Below are positions 1-34,468 of a DNA stretch of 64,000 nt, in pieces (within the stretch, counting starts at the first letter, position 1; each line of letters opens with the position of its first letter). The notes under the pieces are model-generated. The model did no database searches. It was not told the origin of the DNA and saw only the letters and a program-made list of their open reading frames with translations. A program made the translations under genes and the position numbers. Location of the stretch: contig NZ_CP130713.1 in the NCBI RefSeq assembly GCF_030553055.1, positions 4,216,001-4,280,000 of the forward strand. The letters run 5' to 3'. The stretch comes from Streptomyces sp. XD-27 (GTDB lineage: Bacteria; Actinomycetota; Actinomycetes; Streptomycetales; Streptomycetaceae).

Positions 1-18827
<18,827 letters not shown>

Positions 18828-18828
<1 letters not shown>

Positions 18829-21800
18829 TGGCTGAACCGAACGATGCCGTCGTCGAGGCATTGCGAACCTCTCTCAAGGAGAACGAACGCCTGCGCGGCG
18901 TGAACGCCGAGCTGTCCGCGGCGGCACACGAGCCCATCGCGATCGTCGGCATGAGCTGCCGCTATCCCGGCGGAGTGCGCTCACCGGAGGACCTGTGGGA
19001 GCTGGTCGCCGCCGGGCGGGACGCCATCTCCGGCTTCCCGCGCAACCGCGGCTGGGACGTCGACGGTCTCTACGCGCCCGAGCCGGGCACCCACGGCAAG
19101 TCGTACGTACGAGAAGGCGGCTTCCTGTACGACGCGGACGAATTCGACCCGGCCTTCTTCGAGATCAGCCCGCGCGAGGCGATGGCGATCGAACCGCAGC
19201 AGCGCCTGCTGCTGCAGTCCTCGTGGGAGGCGATCGAGCGGGCCGGCATCGACCCGACGACGCTGCGCGGCAGCCGCACCGGAGTCTTCGTGGGGATCGC
19301 GCGCCAGGAGTACGGGCCGGCGCTGCACGAGTCACCGGAAGCGCTCGAGGGCTACCTGATGATGGGCACCTCGGTCGCGGTCGCCTCCGGGCGCATCTCC
19401 TACGTGTGGGGATTCGAAGGACCGGCCGTCACGATCGACACGGCGTGCTCGTCGTCGCTGGTGACGATGCACATGGCCGCGCAGGCGCTGCGCAACGGCG
19501 AGTGCTCGCTGGCCCTCGCGGGCGGCGCGACGGTCATGGCGATGCCCGGCGTGTTCATCGAGTTCAGCCGCCAGCGCGGTCTCGCGGCGGACGGGCGGTG
19601 CAAGGCGTTCGCCGAGGCGGCGGACGGCACGGCCTGGGGCGAGGGCGTGGGGCTGCTGCTCCTCGAGCGCCTCTCCGACGCGCGGAAGAACGGCCACCAG
19701 GTCCTCGCCGTCATACGCGGCTCGGCCGTCAACCAAGACGGCGCTTCCAACGGCCTGACCGCCCCCAACGGCCCCTCCCAGCAACGCGTCATCCGCCAGG
19801 CCCTGGCCAACGCGCGGCTGACGGCGGACCAGGTGGACGCCGTCGAGGCGCACGGCACGGGCACCACCCTCGGCGACCCCATCGAAGCGCAGGCGCTCCT
19901 CGCCACCTACGGCAAGGACCGGCCCGTTGACCGGCCGCTGTGGCTGGGGTCGGTGAAGTCGAACATCGGCCACCCGCAGTGCGCGGCGGGCGCGGCGGGC
20001 GTCATCAAGATGGTCATGGCCATGCGCCACGGCACCCTGCCGAAGACGCTGCACGTGGACGAGCCGACGTCGCATGTGGACTGGTCGGCCGGCGCGGTGG
20101 AACTCCTCGCCGACAAGCGGCCGTGGCCGCAGACCGACGACCGGCCCCGGCGGGCCGCGGTGTCGGCGTTCGGCGTGAGCGGCACCAACGCGCACCTGAT
20201 CCTCGAGCAGGCACCCGAGCAGGAGACCGCGCCCGAGCAGCCGACGGCGCCCGCCACCGTCGATCACGTGCCGGGCGGCACCGCCGGGCTGGTGCCGTGG
20301 GTCGTGTCGGCGCGGTCGGAGGACGGCTTGCGGGCCCAGGCGGAGCGACTGCGCGACTTCGCCGCCGCCGACGCGGGCCTGGACATCGCCGACGTCGGCT
20401 GGTCGCTGGTGTCGAGCCGGGCGCGGCTTGAGCACCGCGCGGTGGTCATCGGCCGTGACCGGGACGAGTTGCTGAGCGGTCTCGCGTCGTTGAGCGACGG
20501 CGCGGAGTCCGCCCGGGTGGCGCGTGGCGTCGCGGGCAGACTCGGCGCTTCCGCCTTCATGTTCCCGGGGCAGGGCGCGGGCTGGGCCGGTGTGGCCCGG
20601 CAGATGTACGACGCCTTCCCCGTCTTCGCGCAGAGCCTCGACGAGGTCTGCGCACGCTTCGACACCCACCTGCCCTACGAGCTGAAGCCCCTGCTCCTCG
20701 CCGACGCGCTCGCGGAGGACCAGGCCCAGCGAACCGACATCGCACAGCCCGCCCTCTTCGCCCTGCAAGTCAGCCTGTACCGGCTCATGACGCGGTACTG
20801 CCCGCGGCCGGACCGCCTGATCGGCCACTCGGTCGGCGAGATCACCGCCGCCCACGTGTCCGGCGCCCTCGACCTGGACGGCGCGACCAGGCTCGTGGCC
20901 GCTCGCGGACGGGTCATGCAGACGGTCACCGAGCGGGGCGCCATGCTGGCGGTGCGCGCCTCGCGAGACGAGGTGAGCGCCCTGCTCGGCCCGTACGACC
21001 GCATCGGCGTCGCGGCGGTCAACGGTCCGGAGTCGGTGGTGGTCTCGGGCGCCCGCGACGAGGTCCTCGCACTCCGGGACCGGCTCGTCGCCGACGGCAC
21101 GCAGGCGAAACCACTGAAGGTGGACCACGCCTTCCACTCCCCGCTCATGGACCCGATCCTGGACGAGTTCGCGGCGTCGATCGACGCTCTCCCCGCGGGC
21201 GAGACGACGATCCCGGTCGTCTCCACGAGGCTGGGCCGCGAGGCCACGCTGGCGGAGCTGACGTCCGTCGAGCACTGGGTGAACCACGTCCGCGAACCCG
21301 TCCGCTTCTTCGACGCGGTGGAGCACGCCCGTGCGGCCGGTGCCCGCGTCTTCCTCGAAGTGGGCCCCGGATCGGCACTCGCGAGCATCACCAAAGAGGC
21401 CTTCGCCAGCGAGGGCGTGGACGACGCGGTGGTCCTCTCGGCGTCGCGGCGGGACCGCGAGGCACCGGAGGCCCTCATCGGCGCGCTGGCCCAACTCCAC
21501 GTCCGGGGCGGGTCCGTGGACTGGGACGCCCTGTTCGGGACACGCCGACGGGTGGATCTTCCGACGTACGCGTTCGAGCGGCAGCGCTACTGGCTGGACC
21601 CCTCGGCCGCCGCGGGCGCCGCGGACGTGGCCTCCGCCGGTCTCTCGGCCCCGCAGCACCCGCTGCTCGGTGCCGTGGTGGACCACCCCGGCACCGGCGA
21701 GGTGGTGTTCACCGACCGGTGGTCCCTGCACACCCACGACTGGCTGGCCGACCACGCCGTGTTCGGCGCGGTCGTCGTACCGGGAACGGCCTACCTGGAC

Positions 21801-24800
21801 CTGGCGCTCTGGGCGGGCGACTCCGTCGGGTGCGCGGCGATCGAGGAACTCTCCTTGGAAGTTCCCCTGATCCTGCCCGGCACGGGTGACGTGCAGGTGA
21901 GGGTCGTCGTCGGCGCGGCGGACGAGACGGGCCACCGCTCCCTGGACGTGTACTCGCGCTCCGGCGACGACGGCCGGACGGTGGGCGGCTGGACCCGGCA
22001 CGCGACGGGCAGCCTGGCACCGGACGCACCGCGACCGGCCGAGCGGACCGAAGACGCGCGCTCACTCGCCGCATGGCCACCGGCCGGGGCGAAGCAGCTC
22101 GCCATCGACGGCTTCTACGACTCCCTCGCGGACACCGGCTTCGACTACGGTCCGACCTTCCGCGGGCTGCGAGAGGTGTGGCAGCACGGCGACGACCTCT
22201 ACGTCCTTGCCGCACTGCCCACGACCCACGACGTGTCCGCCGACGGGTTCGCGCTGCATCCGGCGCTGATCGACTCGGTGCTCCACGCGGTGGCGGTCGG
22301 CGGCGTCCTCGACGTGACCGACGGCCAGGGCTGGATGCCGTTCTCGTGGTCCGGGGTGGACCTGACCGGGCAGTGCGGCCCGAGCGTGCGGGTCCGCATG
22401 ACCCCGGCGGGCGAAGGCGTCGTGTCCTTGACGATCGCCGACGAACACGGCCGCGACATCGCGCACGTCGCGGCCCTGACGTTCCGACCGGCAGGCCCCG
22501 AGCACCTGCGCTCGGCACGAGGCGGGCACCAGCGATCGCTGTACGAACTGCGATGGCTCCCCCTCCAGCGGGGCACACGAGAAACCCACCGCGGACAGTG
22601 GGGCGTTCTCGGCGCCCGGGACGGCCTGGCCTCCCGGCTCTCCACGGCGGTGCCGTACGCGTCCCTGGACGACGTCCTCCAAGGCGAGGTCCCCCGGCAC
22701 GTCGTCCTGTGCCTGGACGACTTCGTCACCGCGGGCACCGACCCGCTCGCCGAGGTCACCGACGCGGACACGCGCGTCCTCGACTGCGTCCAGCGGTTCC
22801 TCGCCGAGGAGCGGCTCTCCGGATCCACGCTGGTGGTGCTGACCCGGCTGGCCCTCGACACCGGCGGTGGGGAGAGCGTCGAAAGCCTCCCCGGCGCGTC
22901 CGTGTGGGGCCTGATCCGGTCCGCCCAGACAGAACACCCCGGCAGGTTCCGGCTGGTGGACATCGACGACGACGAGACGTCCTGGGCGTGCTTCCCCGAC
23001 GTGCTCACCCTCGGCGATGAACAACTGGCGCTGCGCGGCGGCACGTACCTCATCCCGCGCATGGCACCGGCCGCACCCGCCGACCACCAGATCGAGCCGC
23101 CCCCCACCGGCGCTCACCGCCTCGGCATCCCGGTCAAGGGCACGCTGGAGAACCTGACCTGGGTGCCGTGCCCCGAGGTGCTCGAGCCCCTGACGAGCGG
23201 GCAGGTCCGCATCGCCGTGCAGGCCGCCGGGCTCAACTTCCGGGACGTCACGATCGCCCTCGGCCTGGTGGAGCGGACCGCCTTCGGCGCCGGAATCGGC
23301 AGTGAAGGAGCCGGAACGGTCCTCGAGGTGGCCGACGACGTCACCGGTCTTGCGCCGGGCGACCGGGTCATGGGCGCGTTCTCCGGCGCCTTCGGGCGCG
23401 TGGCCGTGACCGATCAGCGCCTGCTCGTGCCCATCCCCGACCGATGGAGCCACGCCGAAGCGGCATCCGTGCCGAGCGCCTTCCTCACCGCCTACCACGC
23501 GCTCTTCCACGTGGTGAAGCTCGAAAAGGGCCAGCGCATCCTCATCCACGCCGCGGCAGGCGGCGTCGGCATGGCCGCCGTCCAACTGGCCAAGCACGTC
23601 GGCGCCGAGATCTACGCGACCGCGAGCCCGGCCAAGTGGCCCGCCCTGCGCGCCCTCGGCCTGGACGACGAACACCTGGCGTCGTCGCGGGACCTGGAAT
23701 TCGAGGACAAGTTCCGCGCCACCTCGGACGGCCGCGGCGTCGATGTCGTCCTGAACTCCCTCGCGCACGGATTCGTCGACGCCTCGCTGAGGCTGCTCCC
23801 CAACGGCGGGCACTTCATCGAGATGGGCAAGACCGACATCCGCGCCCCCCAGCAGGTGGCGGCCGACCACCCCGGAGTCGACTACCAGGCCTTCGACCTC
23901 TCCGAAGAAGACCTGGACGCGACCCACGAGCGGCTCCGAGCCCTCATGGAACTCTTCGCCGACGGGCGGATCCACCTGAACCCCCTCTCCGTACGGAGCA
24001 TCCGCGACGCGCGCAAGGCGTTCCGCGACATGAGCCAGGGCCGCCACGTCGGCAAGCTGGTCCTCGAGGTCGGCGACGCCTTCGGCGGCGGCACCGTCCT
24101 TGTCACCGGCGGGACCGGGGGAGTGGGCGCGCTGGTGGCACGGCACCTCGTCGCCGAACACGGTGTGCGGAGCCTGGTCCTCGCCAGCCGTAGCGGAACG
24201 GCGGCCGACGGGGCTCCCGAGCTGGTCTCGGACCTGGAAGGGGCAGGCGCGACGGTCACGGTCGTGGCCTGCGACGTCGCGGACCGGGCCGCCGTCGCGG
24301 ACCTGCTCGCGGACCTGCCTCGGCAGCACCCGCTGACGGCGGTCGTGCACGCGGCGGGCACGCTCGCCGACGGCACCGTCGAGTCACTGACCGCCGAGAG
24401 CCTCGAACGCGTGCTGCGGGCCAAGGTCGGCGGCGCGGTCAACCTGCACGAGCTGACCCGGGACCACACCCTGTCGGCGTTCATCCAGTTCTCCGCCCTC
24501 GCGGGCACGCTCGGCAGCGCGGGACAGGCGAACTACGCCGCGGCGAACACCTTCCTGGACGGTCTCGCGGCACAGCGCAGGGCGTCCGGCCTGGCCGGCA
24601 CGTCGCTGTGCTGGGGCTGGTGGGAGCAGCGCAGCGGCATGACCGCGGACCTGGACCAAGCCGCCCTCTCCCGGTCCCGGCGCCTCGGCGTCGCCGCGAT
24701 GCCGACGCCCGAAGCGCTGGCCCTGTTCGACTCGGCCCACGCGATCGGCACACCCGTACTCATCCCGGCCCGGATGGACCTGGCCGCGCTGCGCAACATG

Positions 24801-25405
24801 ACCGGCGACGAACTGCCGCCCCTGCTGCGCGACCTCGTCGACGGCGGCCGTCCACCCCGTGGCCGGACGAGCACCACCGGCGACAGCGGCCCCTCGGCCT
24901 GGCCACCCTGCCACAGGACGAGGCGGCGGCAGTTGCCCTCACGTGGGTCCGCGAACAGGCCGCCATCGTGCTCGGACACCCCACCAGCGAGGGCGTCGAC
25001 GCCGACCAGGCGTTCACCCACCTCGGATTCGACTCGCTGACCGCGGTCGAACTGTGCAACCGCCTGGCTTCCTCGACCGGACTGCGCCTGCCGTCCACGC
25101 TCGTCTTCAGCTACCCCACACCCCGCGAGCTGAGCCAGCACATCTGCGGTCTGCTGCGTCCGGCAGCGGACCCGCAGGCGGCCGATGACGCGCGGATCCG
25201 AGACGTACTACGGACCGTCTCGATCGAAAGCCTGCGCAACGCGGGCCTATTGGAACGGGTCCTGGCGTGCGCCGACCCGTCTCCCACGGGCACCCACGGA
25301 CCCGCGCCCGACGCGGCCCCCGACGCGGGCACGGGCGCGGACGAACTGGGGGACCTGGACCTGGAAGCACTGGTCGATCTGGCTCTGGACGAGAGGGACA
25401 AGTGA
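18828..25405 (+). CDS. Modular type I polyketide synthase B: module 5, frame-broken between KR and ACP
   Basis: Single-module PKS. ATG at 18828 is chosen because GGAGG at 18818-18822 sits 5 nt upstream; an in-frame ATG at 18825 overlaps the PKS A stop and is equally readable. The N terminus ([20 protein letters not shown]) is a coiled-coil docking element that should receive the PKS A tail. Domains: KS, AT (GHSVG and HAFH, malonyl type), DH, ER, KR, then ACP (GFDSL) and a C-terminal docking tail ([13 protein letters not shown]). The frame used from 18828 runs to a stop at 25040, inside the ACP region, whereas the ACP and tail lie one frame back and end at 25403-25405. A single missing base around 24843-24900 would restore one protein of about 2190 residues. 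Either this is a sequence error, a real mutation, or a slippage site. KR5 also has Ala at the catalytic Ser position. Confidence 0.9.
18930..25150 (+). other. PKS module 5: KS-AT(malonyl)-DH-ER-KR-(frame break)-ACP
   Basis: KS about 18930-20215 with DTACSSS, HGTGT and KSNIGH; AT about 20550-21600, the only malonyl-type AT in the window; DH about 21655-22500 with canonical HxxxGxxxxP and [12 protein letters not shown] about 23115-24075 with intact GGVG and NSLA loops; KR about 24085-24780; ACP about 24930-25150. Expected full reduction, but KR5 reads FSALAG where the catalytic Ser (13 residues before the Tyr) is Ala, which could block the whole reductive loop. Confidence 0.88.
24843..24900 (+). 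other. Reading-frame break in PKS B between KR5 and ACP5
   Basis: Upstream of this interval PKS homology lies in the frame of codons starting at positions divisible by 3; downstream it lies in the frame one base earlier. A run of four C at 24890-24893 is a natural place for one lost base: restoring a fifth C would give a continuous Gly-Pro-Leu-Gly-Leu-Ala linker into the ACP. The exact point cannot be fixed because both frames read as plausible linker here. Slippage of a CCC codon back by one base on the same run would also bridge the frames. Confidence 0.85.
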
Positions 25406-25406
25406 C

Positions 25407-28400
25407 ATGAACAACCCGCCGGATCACACGACGCAGGGCTCGGACCGGGTCCAGCGGGCGCTCCGCACACTGCTGGAGGAGCGCGACCGCCTCCGCCAGG
25501 AGAACGACGCCCTGAAGGCCGGCCGCGGCGAGCCGATCGCCGTCGTGGCCATGGCCTGCCGCTACCCCGGAGGCGTGTCGTCCCCCGAACAACTGTGGGA
25601 GGTGATCCGCGACGGCCGGGACGTCGTGGACGAGCTCCCGCAGGACCGCGGCTGGCGAGACGTGTACGACCCGGACCCCGACACCGTCGGCAGCGCGTAC
25701 ACGCGTCAGGGCGGCTTCCTGACGGACGTGGCCGGTTTCGACACGGACTTCTTCGGCATCAGTCCGCGTGAGGCGCTGGCGATGGACCCCCAGCAGCGGC
25801 TGCTCCTCGAGACGTCGTGGGAGGTCTTCGAGCGGGCCGGCATCGTTCCCGCAGGTGTGCGCGGCGCCGACGTCGGTGTCTTCACCGGAATCAGCTCGCC
25901 CGAGTACGGGGCCCGCTTCCTGGAGACCAGCGGGCACGACCTGGAGGGCTACCTGCTGTACGGCAGCACCCTGAGCATCGCCTCCGGCCGGGTGGCGTAC
26001 CAGATGGGATTCACCGGGCCCGCGGTGTCGTTGGACACGGCGTGCTCGTCGTCGCTGGTGGCCCTGCACCTGGCGGTGCAGTCACTGCGTTCGGGCGAGT
26101 GCTCGCTCGCGCTGGCCGGCGGGGTCTCGGTGATGTCGACCCCCTCGATCCTCGTGGAGTTCTCCCGGCAGCGCGCGCTGTCGGCCGACGGCCGCTGCAA
26201 GGCCTTCGCCGACGGAGCCGACGGGACCGGCTGGGCCGAGGGCGCGGGTGTGCTGCTCCTTGAGCGGTTGTCCGACGCCCGCAGCAACGGCCACCCGGTC
26301 CTTGCCGTCCTGCGTGGTTCCGCGGTGAACCAGGACGGCGCCAGCAACGGCCTGACCGCCCCCAACGGCCGCGCCCAGGAGAGGGTGATTCGCAGGGCAC
26401 TGGCGAACGCGGGCGTCGCGGCCAGCGAGGTGGACGCGGTCGAGGCCCACGGCACCGGAACCGCGCTGGGCGATCCCATCGAGGCCGGTGCGCTCCTTGC
26501 CACCTACGGCCAGGACCGGCCGCAGGACCGGCCGCTGTGGCTGGGGTCCGTGAAGTCGAACATGGGTCACGCCCAGGCGGCCTCGGGCGTCGCTGGCGTG
26601 ATCAAGATGGTGATGGCCCTGCGGCACGGGGTGCTGCCCCGCACGCTGCACGTGGACGCGCCGTCCCCGCACGTGGACTGGGCGTCGGGTGCGGTGGAGC
26701 TGCTGACCGAGGCACAGCCCTGGCCGGACGCGGGCCGCCCGCGCCGCGCTGCTGTCTCCTCCTTCGGTATCAGCGGGACCAACGCGCACGTGGTGCTTGA
26801 GCAGGCCCCGGAGGGCGGGGACGCCGCTGGCGCGGACGTGCCGGGTCCGGCGGTGGCGGCGGACGGGCCGGTGGCGGCGGATGGGCCGGTGCCGTGGCTG
26901 GTGTCGGGTAAGAGTGCGGCGGCGTTGGGGGCGCAGGCGGGGCGGTTGGCGGGCTTCGTGGCCGCCGGTGCGGACCTGTCGGCGGCTGATGTGGGGTTGT
27001 CGCTGGCGGTGTCGCGGTCGGCGTTCGACCACCGGGCGGTGGTGATCGGCCGCGAACTGGCCGACTTCGAGGCCGCGTTGGCGGAACTGGCCGTCGGGGA
27101 ACTGCCGCCGGGCGCGGTGACCGGCGCGGTGACCGCCGAGCCCGGCAAGACCGTGTTCGTCTTCCCCGGCCAGGGATCGCAGTGGCGGGGAATGGCCGTG
27201 GAGTTGGCCGACTCCTCACCGGTGTTCGCGGACCGGTTGGCGCAGTGCGCGGACGCCATCGAGGCGCATGTGGACTGGCGCGTGCTCGATGTGCTGCGGG
27301 AGGTGGAAGGGGCACCGTCGCTGGAACGGATCGAGGTCGTACAGCCGGTGCTGTTCGCCGTGATGGTGTCGCTGGCGGCGCTGTGGCAGGCCTGCGGGGT
27401 GGTACCGGCGGCGGTCGTCGGACACTCGCAAGGGGAGATCGCCGCCGCGTGCGTGTCGGGGGCGCTGTCGCTGGAAGACGCGGCGCGGATCGTCGTGCTG
27501 CGGTCGCAGTTGTTCGCGGACGAGCTGGTGGGCCAGGGCGCGGTGGCGTCGGTGGCGCTGTCGCGGGCGGACGTCGAGGCCCGACTGGACGCGTACGGGG
27601 ACCAGTTGTCGGTCGCGGGGATCAACGGGCCCCGAGCGGTGACCGTCGCCGGTGAGGTCGAGGCCCTGGAGAAGCTCGTCGCGGGCCTGGAAGCGGAAGG
27701 CGTGCGGGCCCGAGTGGTACCGGCCACCGTGGCTTCGCACTGCGTTCAGGTGGACCGGCTGCGCGAACGAATCCTCGACCTGCTCGGCTTCGTCGAGCCG
27801 CGCGCCGGATCGGTGCCGCTGTACTCCACCGTCACCGGCCAGGTCATGGACGGATCGGAGCTGAATGCCGCGTACTGGTTCGAGAACTGCCGTCGCCCGG
27901 TGGCCTTCGAACCGGTGGTGCGGTCGCTGCTCGTCGACGGATTCCGCGTCTTCGTCGAGTCCAGCGCCCACCCCGTGCTGACACTGGGCCTCGTCGACAC
28001 CGCCGACGACGCCGGGACCGAGGTCGTGGCGGTGGGCACCCTGCGCCGGGGCGAGGGCGGTCTTGAACGGTTCCACGCCTCCCTCGGTGAGGCGTGGACA
28101 CAAGGCGTGGACGTCGACTGGCCGGTGGTGTTCCAGAGCCGGGCGGCACGCGTCGTCGACCTGCCGACCTACGCCTTCCAGCACCAGCGGTACTGGCTGA
28201 ACGCCCCCTCGCACCCAGCCGTGACGGTGGAAACACCCCCGACGGAGCTGCCCACCGACGACGACCACCTCGTCCTACTGCCGGACAAGATCGCCGGACT
28301 CCCCGACAGCGACGCCGAGGCACTCGTCCTTGACCACGTCCTTAAGAAGGTCGCCGTCGTCCTCGGCCGACCCACCGCCGAGACGCTCGACCCCGACCAG

Positions 28401-28568
28401 AAGTTCGGGGACATCGGATTCGACTCGATGCTGTCGGTGGAGCTGAGCAAACGCCTGTCCGCGGCGACCGGACTCAAGCTGAGGGCGAACGTGGTGCTGA
28501 AGTACCCGACACCAAAACTGATCAGCGTGCACCTCATGTCCTCGATGGCCCGCCGCGATCCGCGGTAG
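25407..28568 (+). CDS. Modular type I polyketide synthase C: module 6, last PKS module, no thioesterase
   Basis: Single-module PKS of 1053 residues. ATG at 25407 lies one base after the PKS B stop, so the genes are coupled; the upstream purine run (GAGAGG near 25391) is a weak ribosome site. The N-terminal helix ([20 protein letters not shown]) is a docking coiled coil. KS about 25535-26810 with DTACSSS, HGTGT and KSNMGH; AT about 27140-28200 with GHSQG and VASH, a methylmalonyl-type variant; ACP about 28310-28540 with GFDSM. There is no KR, so a beta-keto group remains. The protein stops about 30 residues after the ACP core. It has neither a TE nor the C-terminal docking tail seen on PKS A and B, which is unusual for the end of an assembly line. 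Its KS-AT linker and AT tail resemble module 2 at DNA level. Confidence 0.97.
25530..28540 (+). other. PKS module 6: KS-AT(methylmalonyl-like, VASH)-ACP
   Basis: Same KS-AT-ACP layout as module 2. The AT core is not one of the homogenised copies of PKS A: its recognition motif is VASH rather than YASH, and its GHSQG context ([10 protein letters not shown]) differs. Specificity is therefore called methylmalonyl-like with moderate certainty. Confidence 0.85.
26884..27072 (+). repeat. KS-AT linker repeat, module 6 copy (189 bp)
   Basis: Partner of 6908-7096. Links the two KS-AT-ACP modules of the cluster by descent or recombination. Confidence 0.92.
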
Positions 28569-28681: not shown

Positions 28682-31600
28682 ATGCTCGTGAAGGTGGAGG
28701 TGATCTGCGGGTTCCTCCGTTTCCCGGGCCTATTTGTTGAGGGGTTGATCCGTTTGCGTTCATTCGACGCGCCGGCCGCGCACAATGGGATGTGGCTGGC
28801 GCAGAAAATGACTCCCGATGCGCTGAACCACGCGATGATCATGTGGGACGTAGACGGTGAGCTGGACCCGGCGGCCATGGAATCCGCGTTCCGACACGTC
28901 CTCGGCGAGGCGGAGGTGCTGCGCGTCAACTTCGTCGACGACGGCAACGGGCTGCGCCTCGTACCTCGTGAACTGGGCGACTGGCGCCCCTTCTTCCTGG
29001 ACCTCAGCGTCGCGGCCGACCCCGAGCAGGCGGCGCGCGAAGCACTCACCGACATGGTGCGCAAGCCCTACGACCTGGAACGGGACCTGCTGTTCCGCCT
29101 CGGCGTGGTCACCCTCGCGGCGAACCGCTCCCTCGTAGTGATCACGTACCACCACCTCATATCGGATGGATACGGGGCGGCGGGCCTGCTGTCGCGGCGC
29201 CTCGCCGAGGTGTACACGGCGCTCGTGCGCGGTGCCGAGGTACCCGAGCCGCCGCACACCTGGGACGCCGAGTCGTTCGCGGCCCTGGCGGCGGAGTACC
29301 GCGCCTCCCCGGCATCCGCCGACGACACGGAGTTCTGGCGGGACTATCTGAAGGACGCGCCCGCGCCCGCGCAGGTCCCGCGCGTCGCCCTGTCCGAGTC
29401 GATGGAGTCCGCGCTCCGCGAACCGATGAGCGGCGCCGACCGCTGGTCGGAAGTGGCCGACGCCATCGGCATGGTGAGCCGGACGCTGACCGTCCCGCGC
29501 GCCGAGGCGGACGCCTGGACCGAGGCCGCGAAGTCCATGGGCATGTGGATGTCGTCGATGCTGACCGCGGCCGCCGCCGTGTACCTCCGGCACCGCTGCG
29601 ACCGCCCGGAGTTCCTCCTCTCGCTGGCCGTCGGCAACCGGGTCGGCGCGGCGAGCAGGACACCCGGTCTCGCGGTGAACGTGGTGCCGGTGCGGGTCAG
29701 GGTCCCGCTCGGCGCGACCCTCAGCGACATCGCCGACTCGGTGAGCGACGAGACGTACGAGATCTTCGACCACGCCGCCTGCCACTACTCCGAGATCCAG
29801 CGCGCCAGCGGAGCCGTCCTCAGCGGCCGCGGCAGCTTCGGCGCCGTCATGAACGTCACCGAATTCGCGGAGCAACTCCACTTCGCCGACAGCCCGGCCC
29901 GCTACCTCTGCGCGACCACCGGAACCTTCGACGAACTGTCGATCGCCGTCGGCACCGACGGAAGCCCCGAAAGCGACCTGTGCATCCGGCTCGACGCCCC
30001 CGCGGGCCTGTACTCCCGCGCGGAACTGCGCTTCATCGGCGAGGAGCTGATCGCCTACATCCGCGCCGTGACGGCCGCCGACCCGCAGTCGCCCATCGGC
30101 GCCCTTGACGTACTCAGCGGCGCCCAGCGGGACCAGGTACTGACGGCACCGAACGACACGGACGCGCCGCTGCCGGGGCTGACCGTTCCCGAACTGTTCG
30201 CCCGCCAGGTGCAGCGGACTCCCGACGCCGTCGCCGTGGACTCCGGCGACTCGACGGTCTCGTACCGGGAACTGGACGAGCGGTCGAGCCGCCTGGCCGA
30301 GGCGCTGCGACGCCACCACGTCGGACCCGAAACGGTCGTGGCGGTGGCGATGCCCCGATCGGTGGACCTCGCCGTCGCCCTCCTCGGGGTGGCGAAAGCG
30401 GGCGGAGCCTACGTTCCCGTCGACCCCGCGTTCCCGGTGGAGCAGATCGAATCGCTGGTCCGTGACTCCTCCTCGCGCGTCCTGCTCACCGACGCGAAGA
30501 CAGCCGCAGCTCTCCCCGCCGACCTGGCCGCGCCGACGGTCCTGTTCGACGACACCCACTCAGACACCACCGCCGACGGTGACGGTGCGCGGGAGACTCT
30601 GGTCCCGCCGCACCAGGACAACCTGCTGGCCGTGACGTACGACAACGAATCCACCGGTGCCGCCACCGGAGCCGCCGTCACACACCGGAACATGGAGCGC
30701 TTCGTCCTGGACCGCCACTGGCGGGACAGCACCTCCGACACCGTGCTGTGGCACGCGCCGCTCACCTCCGACGCGCTCGCCATCGAACTGTGGGTGCCGC
30801 TCCTGAACGGCGGCCGGGTGGTCGTGGCCCCTCCCGGAGAACTGGACATCGACGCGCTGCCCGCGCTGCGCACCGCACACCAGATCTCCACGGTGTGGCT
30901 GCCCGCGGCCCTGTTCTCGTCGATCGCCGCGGAACGCCCCGAGTGCGTCGCCGGGTTCCGCGAGGTGTGGACCGGCGGTGACCGCGTATCCGCGGCCGCG
31001 CTGCGACGCGTACGGGAGGCATGCCCCGGGCTGACGATCGTCAACGGCCACGGCCCCACCGAAACGACGGTGTTCGCCACCCGCCACCGCCTGACCGCGG
31101 ACGAGGCGGCCCACCACGCGAGCGCCCTCGGCCGCCCCATGGACAACACCGCCCTCTACGTGCTGGGGCCGGGCCTCGCGCCCGTACCCGCGGGCGTGAC
31201 CGGAGAGCTGTACGTCGCCGGTCCCGGCCTGACACGCGGGTACCCCGGACGGCCCGGGCAGACCGCCGAGCGGTTCGTGCCCTGCCCGTTCGGCCCCGAC
31301 GGCGGGCTCATGTACCGCACCGGACACCGGGTGCGGTGGGCAACTGACGGCCGCCTCGACCACGTGGGCCGGGCCGACTCCCAGGCGGAGATACGCGGTG
31401 TCCGCGTCGAAGCAACCGAGGTCGAAGAGACCCTGTCCGAACACCCCGGCCTCGCGCAGTCAGTCGTGGCCGTCGGCACGGACGACTCCGGACAGCAGCG
31501 ACTCGTGGCCTACGTAGTCCCGGTCGGCGGCCCCGACCTCACGGTCGGCCTCTCCGTCGAGGAACTGCGCCGGTTCGTCGCGGGACGGCTCCCGGAGTAC

Positions 31601-31990
31601 ATGGTGCCAACGGCGTTCGTGACCCTGGCACGCCTGCCGATGACGGCCGACGGCAGGGTGGCCAGGACGACGCTGCCGGAACCGACGTTCGACGACGAGC
31701 AGTACCGGGCACCGCGCAACCACGTCGAGCGCGTCCTGGCCGAAGCGTTCGCCGACGTCCTCGAAGTGGACCGGGTCGGCATCGACGACGACTTCTTCGA
31801 CCTCGGAGGCAACTCGCTGCGGGCCATCAGCCTGGTCAGCCAGATCCGGGCGGAGCTGAACCAGGAGGTGTCCATCCGCACGCTGTTCGCGGTGCGCACC
31901 GTCGCCGGCCTGTCAGACACCTGGAAGGACCTCGCCCAGTCCAGCAGGCCAACCCTGGGCCGCAGGACCAAGGACGGCGAAGTCCTCTGA
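28682..31990 (+). CDS. NRPS-like protein: condensation - degenerate adenylation - PCP, no thioesterase
   Basis: 1102 residues from the listed ATG, which lacks a ribosome site; a TTG at 28754 preceded by GAGGGG fits better with where C domains start, so the start is uncertain. The C domain (about 30-450) has HHLISDG with His and Asp-Gly intact and a normal late NVVPVR motif. The A-like domain (about 495-1000) is decayed: the P-loop reads DNESTGAATGA instead of TSGSTGxPKG, NxYGPTE reads NGHGPTE, YRTGD reads YRTGH, QVKIRG reads QAEIRG, and the catalytic Lys of NGKVDR is Arg. The PCP (about 1010-1080) has LGGNSL and should be phosphopantetheinylated. It lies directly after the TE-less PKS C, so the C domain likely accepts the finished chain from ACP6. 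The amine or alcohol partner, and how it gets onto the PCP, are unknown. Confidence 0.93.
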   Translation: MLVKVEVICGFLRFPGLFVEGLIRLRSFDAPAAHNGMWLAQKMTPDALNHAMIMWDVDGELDPAAMESAFRHVLGEAEVLRVNFVDDGNGLRLVPRELGDWRPFFLDLSVAADPEQAAREALTDMVRKPYDLERDLLFRLGVVTLAANRSLVVITYHHLISDGYGAAGLLSRRLAEVYTALVRGAEVPEPPHTWDAESFAALAAEYRASPASADDTEFWRDYLKDAPAPAQVPRVALSESMESALREPMSGADRWSEVADAIGMVSRTLTVPRAEADAWTEAAKSMGMWMSSMLTAAAAVYLRHRCDRPEFLLSLAVGNRVGAASRTPGLAVNVVPVRVRVPLGATLSDIADSVSDETYEIFDHAACHYSEIQRASGAVLSGRGSFGAVMNVTEFAEQLHFADSPARYLCATTGTFDELSIAVGTDGSPESDLCIRLDAPAGLYSRAELRFIGEELIAYIRAVTAADPQSPIGALDVLSGAQRDQVLTAPNDTDAPLPGLTVPELFARQVQRTPDAVAVDSGDSTVSYRELDERSSRLAEALRRHHVGPETVVAVAMPRSVDLAVALLGVAKAGGAYVPVDPAFPVEQIESLVRDSSSRVLLTDAKTAAALPADLAAPTVLFDDTHSDTTADGDGARETLVPPHQDNLLAVTYDNESTGAATGAAVTHRNMERFVLDRHWRDSTSDTVLWHAPLTSDALAIELWVPLLNGGRVVVAPPGELDIDALPALRTAHQISTVWLPAALFSSIAAERPECVAGFREVWTGGDRVSAAALRRVREACPGLTIVNGHGPTETTVFATRHRLTADEAAHHASALGRPMDNTALYVLGPGLAPVPAGVTGELYVAGPGLTRGYPGRPGQTAERFVPCPFGPDGGLMYRTGHRVRWATDGRLDHVGRADSQAEIRGVRVEATEVEETLSEHPGLAQSVVAVGTDDSGQQRLVAYVVPVGGPDLTVGLSVEELRRFVAGRLPEYMVPTAFVTLARLPMTADGRVARTTLPEPTFDDEQYRAPRNHVERVLAEAFADVLEVDRVGIDDDFFDLGGNSLRAISLVSQIRAELNQEVSIRTLFAVRTVAGLSDTWKDLAQSSRPTLGRRTKDGEVL

Positions 31991-33697: not shown

Positions 33698-34468
33698 ATG
33701 ACGAGTCCGCTGGAAGAACGGTGGATACGCCACTACCGCGACGACGACACCTGCGGGACGAAACTCGTCTGCTTCCCCCACGCCGGCGGCTGGGCGAGCG
33801 CCTATCGCACCTGGCCCCTGGGCCTGCCCCCGGACATCGGCGTGCTCGCCGTCCGCTACCCGGGCCGAGAAGACCGGTACGCCGACCCGTTCCCGCCGGG
33901 GCTCGAGGACCTCGCGGACGACATAGCCGACGCGCTCACCGAGTTGACGCGACACCAGTTGGTGCTGTTCGGCCACAGCATGGGCGCCACGGTGGCGCAC
34001 GAGGTGGCGCTGCGCCTCCAACAGCGGGGGTGCCCGCCAGCCGCCCTGTGCGTGTCCGGCAGACGACCGCCGCACGCGCTGGACGGATCGCGGACATACT
34101 TCGACACGGACGAGAAGATCATCACGGAGATCCTGCGCTTCGACCAGAGCCGCGCCCCGGTCTTCGCGGACCCCGACCTGCGAGAACTCGTACTCCCCGC
34201 GGTTCGCGCGGACTACCGGATGGTGGACGCCTACCGCGGTGGCCCCCGCCCTCCGCTCGACTGCCCCGTATACGGCTACACCGGTGACAACGACCCCGAA
34301 GCGACCCCGAAGCAGATGCGCGGCTGGGCGGACCTGACGCACACCGCCTTCCGGCTCCGCGTGCTGCCCGGCGGCCACTTCTACCTCGTAGCCGAGGAAG
34401 CCGCGCTCCTGGCGGACTTGACCGACGTACTGGCCCGCACCAAGCGCCGTACAGAGGCCGCCTCCTGA
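33698..34468 (+). CDS. Type II (editing) thioesterase
   Basis: 256-residue alpha/beta-hydrolase that removes stalled or misprimed acyl groups from carrier proteins. It shows the type II signature CFPHAGG near residue 25, the nucleophile GHSMG near residue 92, an Asp in YTGDND and the catalytic His in PGGHFYL near residue 227. The length is usual for the family. GGAAAGGGA about 8 nt upstream supports this ATG. As the last gene of the biosynthetic operon it is the only thioesterase seen, so it could also serve product release, but type II enzymes normally do not. Confidence 0.95.
   Translation: MTSPLEERWIRHYRDDDTCGTKLVCFPHAGGWASAYRTWPLGLPPDIGVLAVRYPGREDRYADPFPPGLEDLADDIADALTELTRHQLVLFGHSMGATVAHEVALRLQQRGCPPAALCVSGRRPPHALDGSRTYFDTDEKIITEILRFDQSRAPVFADPDLRELVLPAVRADYRMVDAYRGGPRPPLDCPVYGYTGDNDPEATPKQMRGWADLTHTAFRLRVLPGGHFYLVAEEAALLADLTDVLARTKRRTEAAS

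Follow-up and report, generated by a model that had tools for sequence, protein, structure and literature searches.

An adenylation domain very probably dead in the first NRPS module of an azinothricin-type line of Streptomyces sp. XD-27, and a candidate route for loading its carrier protein in trans

P0001 of Streptomyces sp. XD-27 is a PlyX/ArtT-type protein and the first NRPS module of an azinothricin-type (polyoxypeptin/aurantimycin-like) PKS-NRPS line, in which it occupies a mid-line position. Judged from its motifs, its adenylation (A) domain is very probably unable to adenylate, and sequence comparison indicates that the same domain is degenerate across the PlyX/ArtT family. We consider it likely that, with this A domain (A*) dead, the amino acid is hydroxylated on a stand-alone PCP and shuttled by a cysteine enzyme to the PCP of P0001. 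The proposal is based on family-wide losses at the ATP site, the gene set and its order, and the cysteine nucleophile.

Degeneracy of the A domain in P0001 and its family

The window analyzed here is a stretch of 64,000 nucleotides whose first letter is position 4216001 of contig NZ_CP130713.1. P0001 and its motifs lie in it as follows:

28682..31990, + strand, PlyX/ArtT-type NRPS protein P0001, C-A*-PCP, 1102 aa; start codon uncertain within 28682-28790 (28790 is the start in the public gene call for P0001 in the same genome)
28784..30136, + strand, condensation (C) domain of P0001, residues 35-485; HHLISDG at 29150-29170
30197..31654, + strand, degenerate A domain A* of P0001, residues 506-991, from motif reading and family alignment
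30626..30685, + strand, A3 P-loop region LAVTYDNESTGAATGAAVTH of P0001, motif DNESTGAATG; Lys to Thr (residue 662)
31043..31075, + strand, A5 of P0001, NGHGPTETTVF; Tyr to His (residue 790)
31310..31327, + strand, A7 of P0001, MYRTGH; Asp to His (residue 882)
31367..31426, + strand, A8 of P0001, GRADSQAEIRGVRVEATEVE, motif QAEIRG; Lys to Glu (residue 903)
31634..31666, + strand, A10 of P0001, LPMTADGRVAR; catalytic Lys to Arg (residue 992)
31733..31918, + strand, PCP domain of P0001, residues 1018-1079, motif LGGNSL; GGNS serine at 31814-31816

Domain matches were Condensation (residues 35-485), AMP-binding (506-854), AMP-binding_C (913-991), and PP-binding (1018-1079). The translation confirmed all five residue losses claimed in the original prediction, along with its intact C motif HHLISDG and PCP motif LGGNSL; the A domain keeps 0/5 core residues (A3 Lys, A5 Tyr, A7 Asp, A8 Lys, A10 Lys). 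With an A domain that is very probably dead, the PCP would depend on loading in trans or the residue would have to come by some other way.

The losses extend well beyond this strain. In an alignment of 120 sequences, consisting of P0001 and the best-listed 119 of 359 relatives (P0002, the same protein, was dropped), the A3, A8, and A10 lysines are all missing in 119/120; counted singly, they are retained in 0/120, 0/120, and 1/120, and the A5 tyrosine in eight. HH..DG and GGNS are each retained in 120/120. The A7 aspartate is present in 111/120, so the A7 histidine is P0001’s own change and no family trait; changes peculiar to P0001 are limited to this residue and some P-loop letters. A scan recovered 53 PlyX-family loci by patterns outside the A-domain lysine motifs, and none retained the A3 (0/51 aligned), A8 (0/48), or A10 (0/46) lysine. 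The aurantimycin producer S. aurantiacus JA 4570 shows the same dead motifs in its protein L071, which is 71% identical to P0001 and falls with it in one clade of 54 tips (support 0.93).

Other modules behave differently. Seventeen from the family-locus scan keep the lysines at A3 (16/17), A8 (16/17), and A10 (15/17), and in the XD-27 genome itself, 11 other NRPS regions with 51 A-domain stretches gave counts of 44/46 aligned, 40/42, and 39/42, respectively. The alignment against other modules suggested in the original prediction thus finds controls that mostly keep these lysines and a family that does not. Given retention in the control modules, we reject an ordinary divergent but active A domain in P0001, and absence across the 120 sequences and the scanned loci rules out a sequencing artefact.

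The PCP is the slowest-evolving of the three domains: across 10 genomes, its median dN is 0.106, while C has 0.154 and A* has 0.213. The pocket positions of A* are conserved to the same degree as the remainder (0.85 vs 0.81) and its pN/pS is below 1 (0.46-0.62), which together indicate that A* is under constraint and may have a remaining role.

The surrounding cluster and its published relatives

P0001 sits between polyketide and tailoring genes in the window:

1..18828, + strand, 6611-aa PKS, partial, four extender modules by AT motifs
18825..25400, + strand, PKS module KS-AT-(DH)-ER-KR-ACP, approximate limits; frame change near 24855-24899 in the KR/ACP interval
25263..28568, + strand, last PKS module KS-AT-ACP, PlyW/ArtR position, acyl-chain donor to P0001
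32037..33596, + strand, FAD-dependent monooxygenase (FAD_binding_3, Rng_hyd_C), conserved within or close to the cluster in most of the relatives read
33698..34468, + strand, type II thioesterase, Ser nucleophile motif GHSMG, PlyY-like position

Upstream of the window lie the start of the 6611-aa PKS, a KSQ-type loading PKS, and, at 4182614-4203153 (13-33 kb upstream), the later NRPS modules, whose genes share their order, size, and domains with PlyF/G/H or ArtF/G/H. The last of these genes carries C, A, PCP, and a thioesterase domain; the A domain of this last module is degenerate too. It had been proposed that the assembly line ends at P0001, that no thioesterase is present in the line, and that the chain might leave on a free nucleophile. 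The upstream genes overturn the first two claims and leave the third unsupported: with a terminal thioesterase in the later modules, no unusual chain release is needed. The companion suggestion, loading of the PCP in trans, stands with the A domain very probably dead, and the search it entailed for a stand-alone A domain upstream found one, PlyC-like and with intact motifs, at 4179340-4181070.

This arrangement closely resembles the published polyoxypeptin (ply) and aurantimycin (art) clusters. Like PlyX and ArtT, P0001 has the C-A-PCP layout, a size of about 1060-1100 aa, and a place immediately behind a KS-AT-ACP PKS, and the XD-27 cluster has a stand-alone A domain, PCPs, a P450, discrete thioesterases, and NRPSs with a final thioesterase. 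In the published accounts of ply and art, gene order is as here, PlyX/ArtT precede PlyF/G/H-type modules and share the architecture, size, and location of P0001, and the common neighbors comprise MbtH, stand-alone A, PCP, FAD enzyme, NRPSs with terminal thioesterase, a further thioesterase, ABC transporter, regulator, PCP, P450, thioesterase, and KSQ-type PKS. By homology, the XD-27 product would be an azinothricin-type cyclodepsipeptide with 3-hydroxyleucine. Two features set XD-27 apart from ply/art: its loading module is followed by six PKS extender modules rather than three, and its last NRPS module contains a second degenerate A domain. The PKS frame change may mean that the XD-27 cluster is not working.

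A putative cysteine-thioesterase route to the PCP

All nine fully read clusters (9/9) contain a PlyC-like A domain, two stand-alone PCPs, and an adjoining PCP-P450-TE_S set in which TE_S (PlyS/ArtN type, ‘type II thioesterase’) directly follows the PCP and P450. The TE_S nucleophile is Cys in each of these nine, in 15/15 further PlyX genomes possessing TE_S, and in 120/120 homologues listed, the protein of polyoxypeptin strain MK498-98F14 included. The remaining triad residues among these 120 are Asp (120/120) and His (113/120); Cys alone is no proof of transfer. In a 150-genome draw of the genus, TE_S was present at 79% or more in 7/7 PlyX genomes; two of 17 PlyX genomes checked had no close TE_S, one (G293) with none and one (G299) with a 44% match on another contig, also with Cys.

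TE_S is an alpha/beta-hydrolase of the thioesterase family (Pfam Thioesterase, E 1.4e-29). Its closest solved relative by sequence is the RifR-type type II thioesterase (PDB 3fla, E 3.8e-35), which is like it in length range and fold family but has Ser at the aligned position of the Cys. ObiF1 is also among the structure-relative matches (6.2e-13). Cysteine thioesterases with a beta-lactone-forming role exist, and the Cys would be the sole support for such a role in TE_S. Cysteine is likewise used by SyrC and CmaE. By analogy, TE_S may be an aminoacyl-transferring thioesterase of the LgnA/SyrC/CmaE kind, alpha/beta-hydrolases of the same broad fold family that move aminoacyl groups between carriers; in PMC8748450, LgnA of legonindolizidine biosynthesis is a type II thioesterase shifting such groups between T domains, with a Ser nucleophile where TE_S has Cys.

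Evidence that the surrounding genes matter comes from polyoxypeptin, whose production was abolished by deletion of plyC, plyD, plyQ, plyI, plyS, or plyR, each alone, and merely lowered by deletion of plyY (PMC3943440); PCP, P450, and thioesterase are thus each essential. We hypothesize that the C domain of P0001 couples the PKS chain to a first amino acid which, by homology, would be 3-hydroxyleucine. Activation of leucine would take place elsewhere, with the stand-alone PlyC-like A domain as the simplest candidate; the residue would be loaded onto a stand-alone PCP (PlyQ/ArtL type), where the neighboring P450 (PlyR/ArtM type) would beta-hydroxylate it. The PlyS/ArtN-type Cys enzyme would then pass the thioester to the PCP of P0001, with A* remaining between C and PCP in a structural role, and the chain would proceed to the upstream-encoded NRPS modules for release by the terminal thioesterase. 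We infer the amino-acid identity in XD-27, the loading A domain, and the transfer step; arrival of the residue from the carrier of another protein follows from the gene set together with the published deletions.

Dead A domains and thioesterase shuttles both have precedents, and the published pathway assumes an active PlyX/ArtT A domain. The nearest parallel is bripiodionen, as the excerpted text of PMC10956176 describes it. BpdC/BpdD resemble P0001 in having C-A*-T after a PKS, a degenerate A between intact C and PCP, an A10 Lys-to-Arg change, and activation of the amino acid by another protein; the dead A domain was inert by mutagenesis and both T domains were required. They differ in that the line terminates there with a Dieckmann cyclase, the loader is an A-T didomain, a P450 step on a separate PCP is not described in that excerpt, and TEII deletion was without effect, unlike that of plyS.

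That dispensable TEII favors an alternative in which PCP-to-PCP transfer is enzyme-free or performed by the A-PCP pair that does the loading, and the Cys enzyme has another task, e.g., proofreading; transfer is also reportedly spontaneous for PacP/PacH (PMC8748450). We regard this as unlikely given the contrasting outcomes of plyS and plyY deletion and the position of the Cys enzyme right after PCP and P450 in 9/9 clusters. Less probable still is that the C domain draws 3-hydroxyleucine straight from the stand-alone PCP, so that its own PCP is by-passed or receives the acylated product. In its favor, the acceptor carrier is a free protein and, with A*, the P0001 PCP lacks a loader; but this PCP is the slowest-evolving domain, its GGNS is invariant, and bripiodionen needs both T domains. 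Similarly improbable is direct loading of leucine onto the P0001 PCP by the stand-alone A domain. Although that domain is intact in 9/9 clusters and CmnA-A1 serves CmnI in this way in capreomycin (PMC12400406), the essential stand-alone PCP and P450 would have no role in this residue, and NikQ-like P450 beta-hydroxylation occurs on a PCP (as cited in PMC3943440).

In the published model (PMC3943440, PMC5031334), the discrete thioesterase hydrolyzes 3-hydroxyleucine off the stand-alone PCP and the A domain of PlyX/ArtT, to which the ply/art papers assign 3-hydroxyleucine activation, re-activates the free amino acid. The conserved A* pocket agrees with this, yet the A-domain losses, ArtT of JA 4570 included, contradict re-activation by a domain that we judge dead from its sequence; with the inert A10 Lys-to-Arg domain of bripiodionen and a nucleophile that is Cys in every homologue listed, we consider the model very improbable. 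Decay of the XD-27 cluster into a pseudo-cluster, with the dead A domain as one element of that decay, is hardly credible: the PKS frame change, A7 His, and degenerate last module would fit, but the A-domain losses are common to the whole family, C and PCP of P0001 are conserved, and an assembly error may account for the frame change.

The cassette outside PlyX clusters and its implications

Among 16 TE_S-like loci outside PlyX clusters in the 150-genome draw, seven were examined. All seven are Cys-TE/P450 clusters that lack PlyX, and in five of them A is missing from, or degenerate in, a C-PCP module: degenerate in G070 and G087, absent in G072 and G019, and an 80-residue remnant in G053. The other two (G013, G024b) have the Cys-TE/P450 cassette without a C-PCP module lacking A, and only a PCP-C protein. 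G072 and G019 carry an additional stand-alone A domain immediately ahead of their PCP-P450-TE cassette; none was seen at that place in G000. One region of the XD-27 genome itself has an A-less C-PCP module, and the thioesterase seen there is of the Ser type only. A-less or degenerate modules occur in 6/8 Cys-TE clusters vs 1/10 other regions (Fisher p 0.013), a hint only, as the comparison was post hoc, counted related pairs separately, and mixed genomes.

We tentatively suggest, at somewhat short of even confidence for the reading as a whole, that PCP, P450, and Cys-thioesterase form a portable cassette for beta-hydroxyaminoacyl delivery that makes the A domain of the receiving module dispensable, and that A domains die or are lost in separate lineages. 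On the same reading, the last-module A domain of G000/G093 would now be decaying likewise, this module probably being served by a second stand-alone set of PlyC-like A, PCP, FAD N-hydroxylase, and TE_I, and a dead A domain may be retained for docking or spacing.

The ply, art, and dpn papers report an A code that is Val or unreadable where the actual residue is 3-hydroxyleucine or Thr, a mismatch termed curious in PMC10888640. Loading in trans, if true, would explain this mismatch in PlyX, ArtT, and DpnS1 and make specificity prediction from such A domains meaningless. It would also revise how the first amino acid enters in a large, widespread antibiotic family. If the Cys enzyme is a shuttle, it would be a compact tool by which modified amino acids could be supplied to any module with no redesign of its A domain.

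Cluster organization and module order

P0001, a C-A*-PCP NRPS protein of the PlyX/ArtT type (A*, degenerate adenylation domain), is at most 1102 aa long, and its ORF contains condensation, AMP-binding, AMP-binding_C and PP-binding domains. Every A-domain residue named in the original prediction is altered as described there, and the C motif HHLISDG and PCP motif LGGNSL are unbroken. We read 66 kb upstream of the window (G000:C1:4216001-4280000; G000 is the XD-27 genome) in the one-contig genome (7,549,390 bases), which yielded the features below.

Cluster features of Streptomyces sp. XD-27, in order (contig coordinates unless stated)
Upstream of the window, first in order: MbtH-like protein
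4179340–4181070: PlyC-like stand-alone A domain (AMP-binding, AMP-binding_C)
Next: PCP_D, stand-alone PCP
Next: FAD enzyme matching the PlyE place
Next: three NRPS ORFs of 2606, 3099 and 1275 aa, the 1275-aa ORF with C, A, PCP and thioesterase
Next: TE_I, thioesterase with GHSLG
Next: ABC transporter genes
Next, opposite strand: large regulator
Start near 4209511: PCP_Q, stand-alone PCP of PlyQ/ArtL type
4209780–4211027: P450 of PlyR/ArtM type
4211024–4211758: TE_S, PlyS/ArtN-type thioesterase with GHCAG
Next: KSQ-type loading PKS, active-site motif DSGQSSSL
Next: PKS of the window, P0001 (window 28682–31990, + strand), FAD monooxygenase, thioesterase with GHSMG

Gene order and gene set equal those tabulated for the polyoxypeptin (ply) and aurantimycin (art) clusters in PMC3943440 and PMC5031334. 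The stand-alone A domain sought upstream is present as the PlyC-like gene. However, the line neither ends at P0001 nor lacks a thioesterase, as had been proposed, because the last NRPS ORF upstream of the window carries one and P0001 occupies the PlyX/ArtT place, which the text available from both papers puts ahead of the PlyF/G/H or ArtF/G/H step. This module order indicates that P0001 is a mid-line module in a line with a terminal thioesterase. Just upstream of the cluster lie an SDR gene and a 973-aa ORF whose A domain is intact (G000:C1:4170589-4174354).

The loading PKS and the six extender modules that follow it occupy window 1–28568 plus 4.3 kb upstream. Aurantimycin has three extender modules, and a longer acyl chain is expected here. 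Within one PKS module the reading frame shifts between KR and ACP, near window 24855–24899; relatives read through this stretch in one frame, with a single open ORF of 2205 aa in genome G093, whose PKS ORFs are similar in length to those of XD-27. Either an error in the assembly or genuine damage could explain the frame change.

Adenylation domains of the PlyX family

Of 8000 candidates scored in a protein search with P0001, 359 relatives had E ≤1e-100. Motifs were counted in 120 sequences, comprising the best-listed 120 of the 359, minus the identical protein P0002, plus P0001. Within this set the A3 and A8 lysines are kept in 0/120 each, the A10 Lys in one (P0040, itself without the A3 and A8 lysines), the A5 Tyr in eight and the A7 Asp in 111, while C and PCP motifs are retained in all 120. 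Scanning named genomes with two peptide patterns, neither touching core motifs, gave at least 71 distinct loci. Of these, 53 share ≥50% A-domain identity and make up the family, 17 belong to NRPS modules outside it, and L113 is truncated. Family loci kept the A3 Lys in 0/51 aligned, the A8 Lys in 0/48 and the A10 Lys in 0/46; values for the other 17 modules were 16/17, 16/17 and 15/17. Hosts of the family loci are Streptomyces, Embleya, Actinacidiphila, Yinghuangia, Catenulispora, Actinoplanes, Amycolatopsis, Actinomadura, Actinophytocola and a Nocardiopsaceae bacterium. The aurantimycin producer S. aurantiacus JA 4570 (L071) is included, with A3 ATDPTGTPTTV, A8 DTQADIRG and A10 AGGRVDR. The family forms a single clade (support 0.93), and a dead A domain, as judged from its motifs, is a trait of the whole family. 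Among the 17 others, the A domain of a Streptomyces omiyaensis module (L116, 37% identical) is degenerate as well (EAAESGTPTG, AHGTLDR).

As far as read, the core motifs are intact in 13 of 15 aligned XD-27 A domains (one with Phe for the A5 Tyr, one with A10 unread behind an insertion), the exceptions being P0001 and the last module, NRPS3. Across 51 A stretches from 11 further NRPS regions of this genome, the A3 Lys is kept in 44/46 aligned, the A8 Lys in 40/42 and the A10 Lys in 39/42. The P-loop is the best-conserved stretch of live XD-27 A domains (mean majority frequency 0.89 versus 0.54 for the domain) and is below average in the PlyX family (0.68 versus 0.81). Median dN between XD-27 and ten relatives is 0.213 for A*, 0.154 for the P0001 C domain, 0.106 for its PCP and 0.102 for the live first A domain of NRPS1 (~0.10 without two non-orthologues, n = 8). 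A* pN/pS of 0.46–0.62 indicates a domain that is relaxed yet still constrained. Substrate-pocket positions placeable by motif are conserved at 0.85, on par with the rest of the domain, which speaks against A* being a pure relic.

NRPS3 (C-A-PCP-TE) lies 13 kb upstream of the window, at G000:C1:4199326-4203153, and has degenerate A motifs TSQSAGKPEG (A3), QARVRG (A8) and DGRLDR (A10). This domain is also degenerate in G093, intact at all five motifs in five relatives, and intact as far as read in G024 and G068. XD-27 and G093 are sisters nested in the intact group, indicating that this second A domain died in their lineage. By homology, the last module probably takes an N-hydroxy amino acid, a residue for which the papers, in the text available, also assume release and re-activation.

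Partner genes and related cassettes

We read nine clusters in full (G000, G093, G142, G068, G024, G132, G238, G178, G153); those of G123 and G184 stop at contig borders and are outside this count. PCP_Q, P450 and TE_S adjoin one another in 9/9, always with a Cys nucleophile in TE_S, and a PlyC-like A domain, PCP_D, PlyE-like enzyme, NRPS3-like ORF (match partial in G024 and G068) and TE_I are likewise present in 9/9. Among the best 120 of 482 TE_S homologues, Cys and Asp occur in 120/120 each and His in 113/120. P0149 (245 aa, Streptomyces sp. MK498-98F14) is identified as PlyS by strain and length.

TE_S was found at 71–89% identity in 15 of 17 named PlyX genomes, all with Cys and JA 4570 included, on the PlyX contig ~18–22 kb away in 11 and on a different contig in four. 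The sole TE_S relative in Actinophytocola algeriensis is 44% identical, also with Cys. One locus of this genome (L160, G299:C2:1185001-1197000) carries a consecutive series of two PCPs, three P450s (40–43% to the P450 of the cluster) and a thioesterase of Cys type (GHCGS). No TE_S was found in Amycolatopsis oliviviridis, where the PlyX A domain is dead as well and the cluster lacks the PCP-P450-Cys enzyme set; at least 2.3 kb downstream of PlyX are genes for a stand-alone A domain, a PCP and a radical-SAM/B12 protein (L154, 11344–15363), an arrangement that would fit another delivery set.

In a 150-genome draw of the genus, TE_S occurred at ≥79% in 7/7 PlyX genomes, and 16 further TE_S-like loci (38–71%) lay outside PlyX clusters. 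The seven of these that were read all have the Cys motif and a nearby P450. In two (G072, G019) an NRPS contains a C-PCP module that lacks an A domain altogether, G053 has an 80-residue A remnant between C and PCP, and G070 and G087 have C, a degenerate A and PCP; G013 and G024b have no C-PCP module with missing or degenerate A, only a PCP-C protein. Among XD-27 NRPS regions, A-less C-PCP occurs in c7400k (Cys TE) and c1362k (only a Ser TE seen) and is absent from the other nine. In the former (L210/L211, G000:C1:7400001-7440000) the Cys-type thioesterase has the motif GHCSG and is encoded on the opposite strand.

Proposed loading route

The alignments and fully read clusters show an A* predicted to be without its chemistry, an intact P0001 PCP and a PCP-P450-Cys enzyme set always beside them. 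We hypothesize that leucine is loaded on PCP_Q and hydroxylated there by the P450, and that TE_S would move the hydroxylated residue to the PCP of P0001. In the text available from PMC3943440, polyoxypeptin was abolished by deleting plyC, plyD, plyQ, plyI, plyS, plyR or plyE and merely lowered by deleting plyY. The published model (PMC3943440, PMC5031334, as far as accessible) has 3-hydroxyleucine hydrolysed off its carrier and re-activated by PlyX/ArtT, and the ply paper gives the PlyS triad as S/C-D-H and takes it as hydrolytic; this route requires an active A domain in PlyX/ArtT and we consider it very improbable.

A dead A domain, under no specificity demand, would account for a mismatch termed curious in the accessible part of PMC10888640, where the A codes of PlyX, ArtT and DpnS1 read Val and the actual residue is 3-hydroxyleucine or Thr. 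In the accessible text of the open-licence PubMed Central literature searched, we found no statement that PlyX/ArtT-type A domains are dead. Trans-loaded dead-A modules are already known as a kind. According to the portions available, bripiodionen BpdC is a C-A*-T protein after a PKS with A10 Lys changed to Arg, where Arg-to-Ala had no effect, both T domains were required and TEII deletion was without effect; LgnA is a type II TE with a Ser nucleophile that shifts Thr between T domains; and for another piperazate peptide a step resembling that of SyrC has been suggested (PMC10609185). A family-wide dead A domain in the azinothricin line, together with a Cys enzyme and a P450 step on a separate carrier, would thus represent a variant of this known kind.
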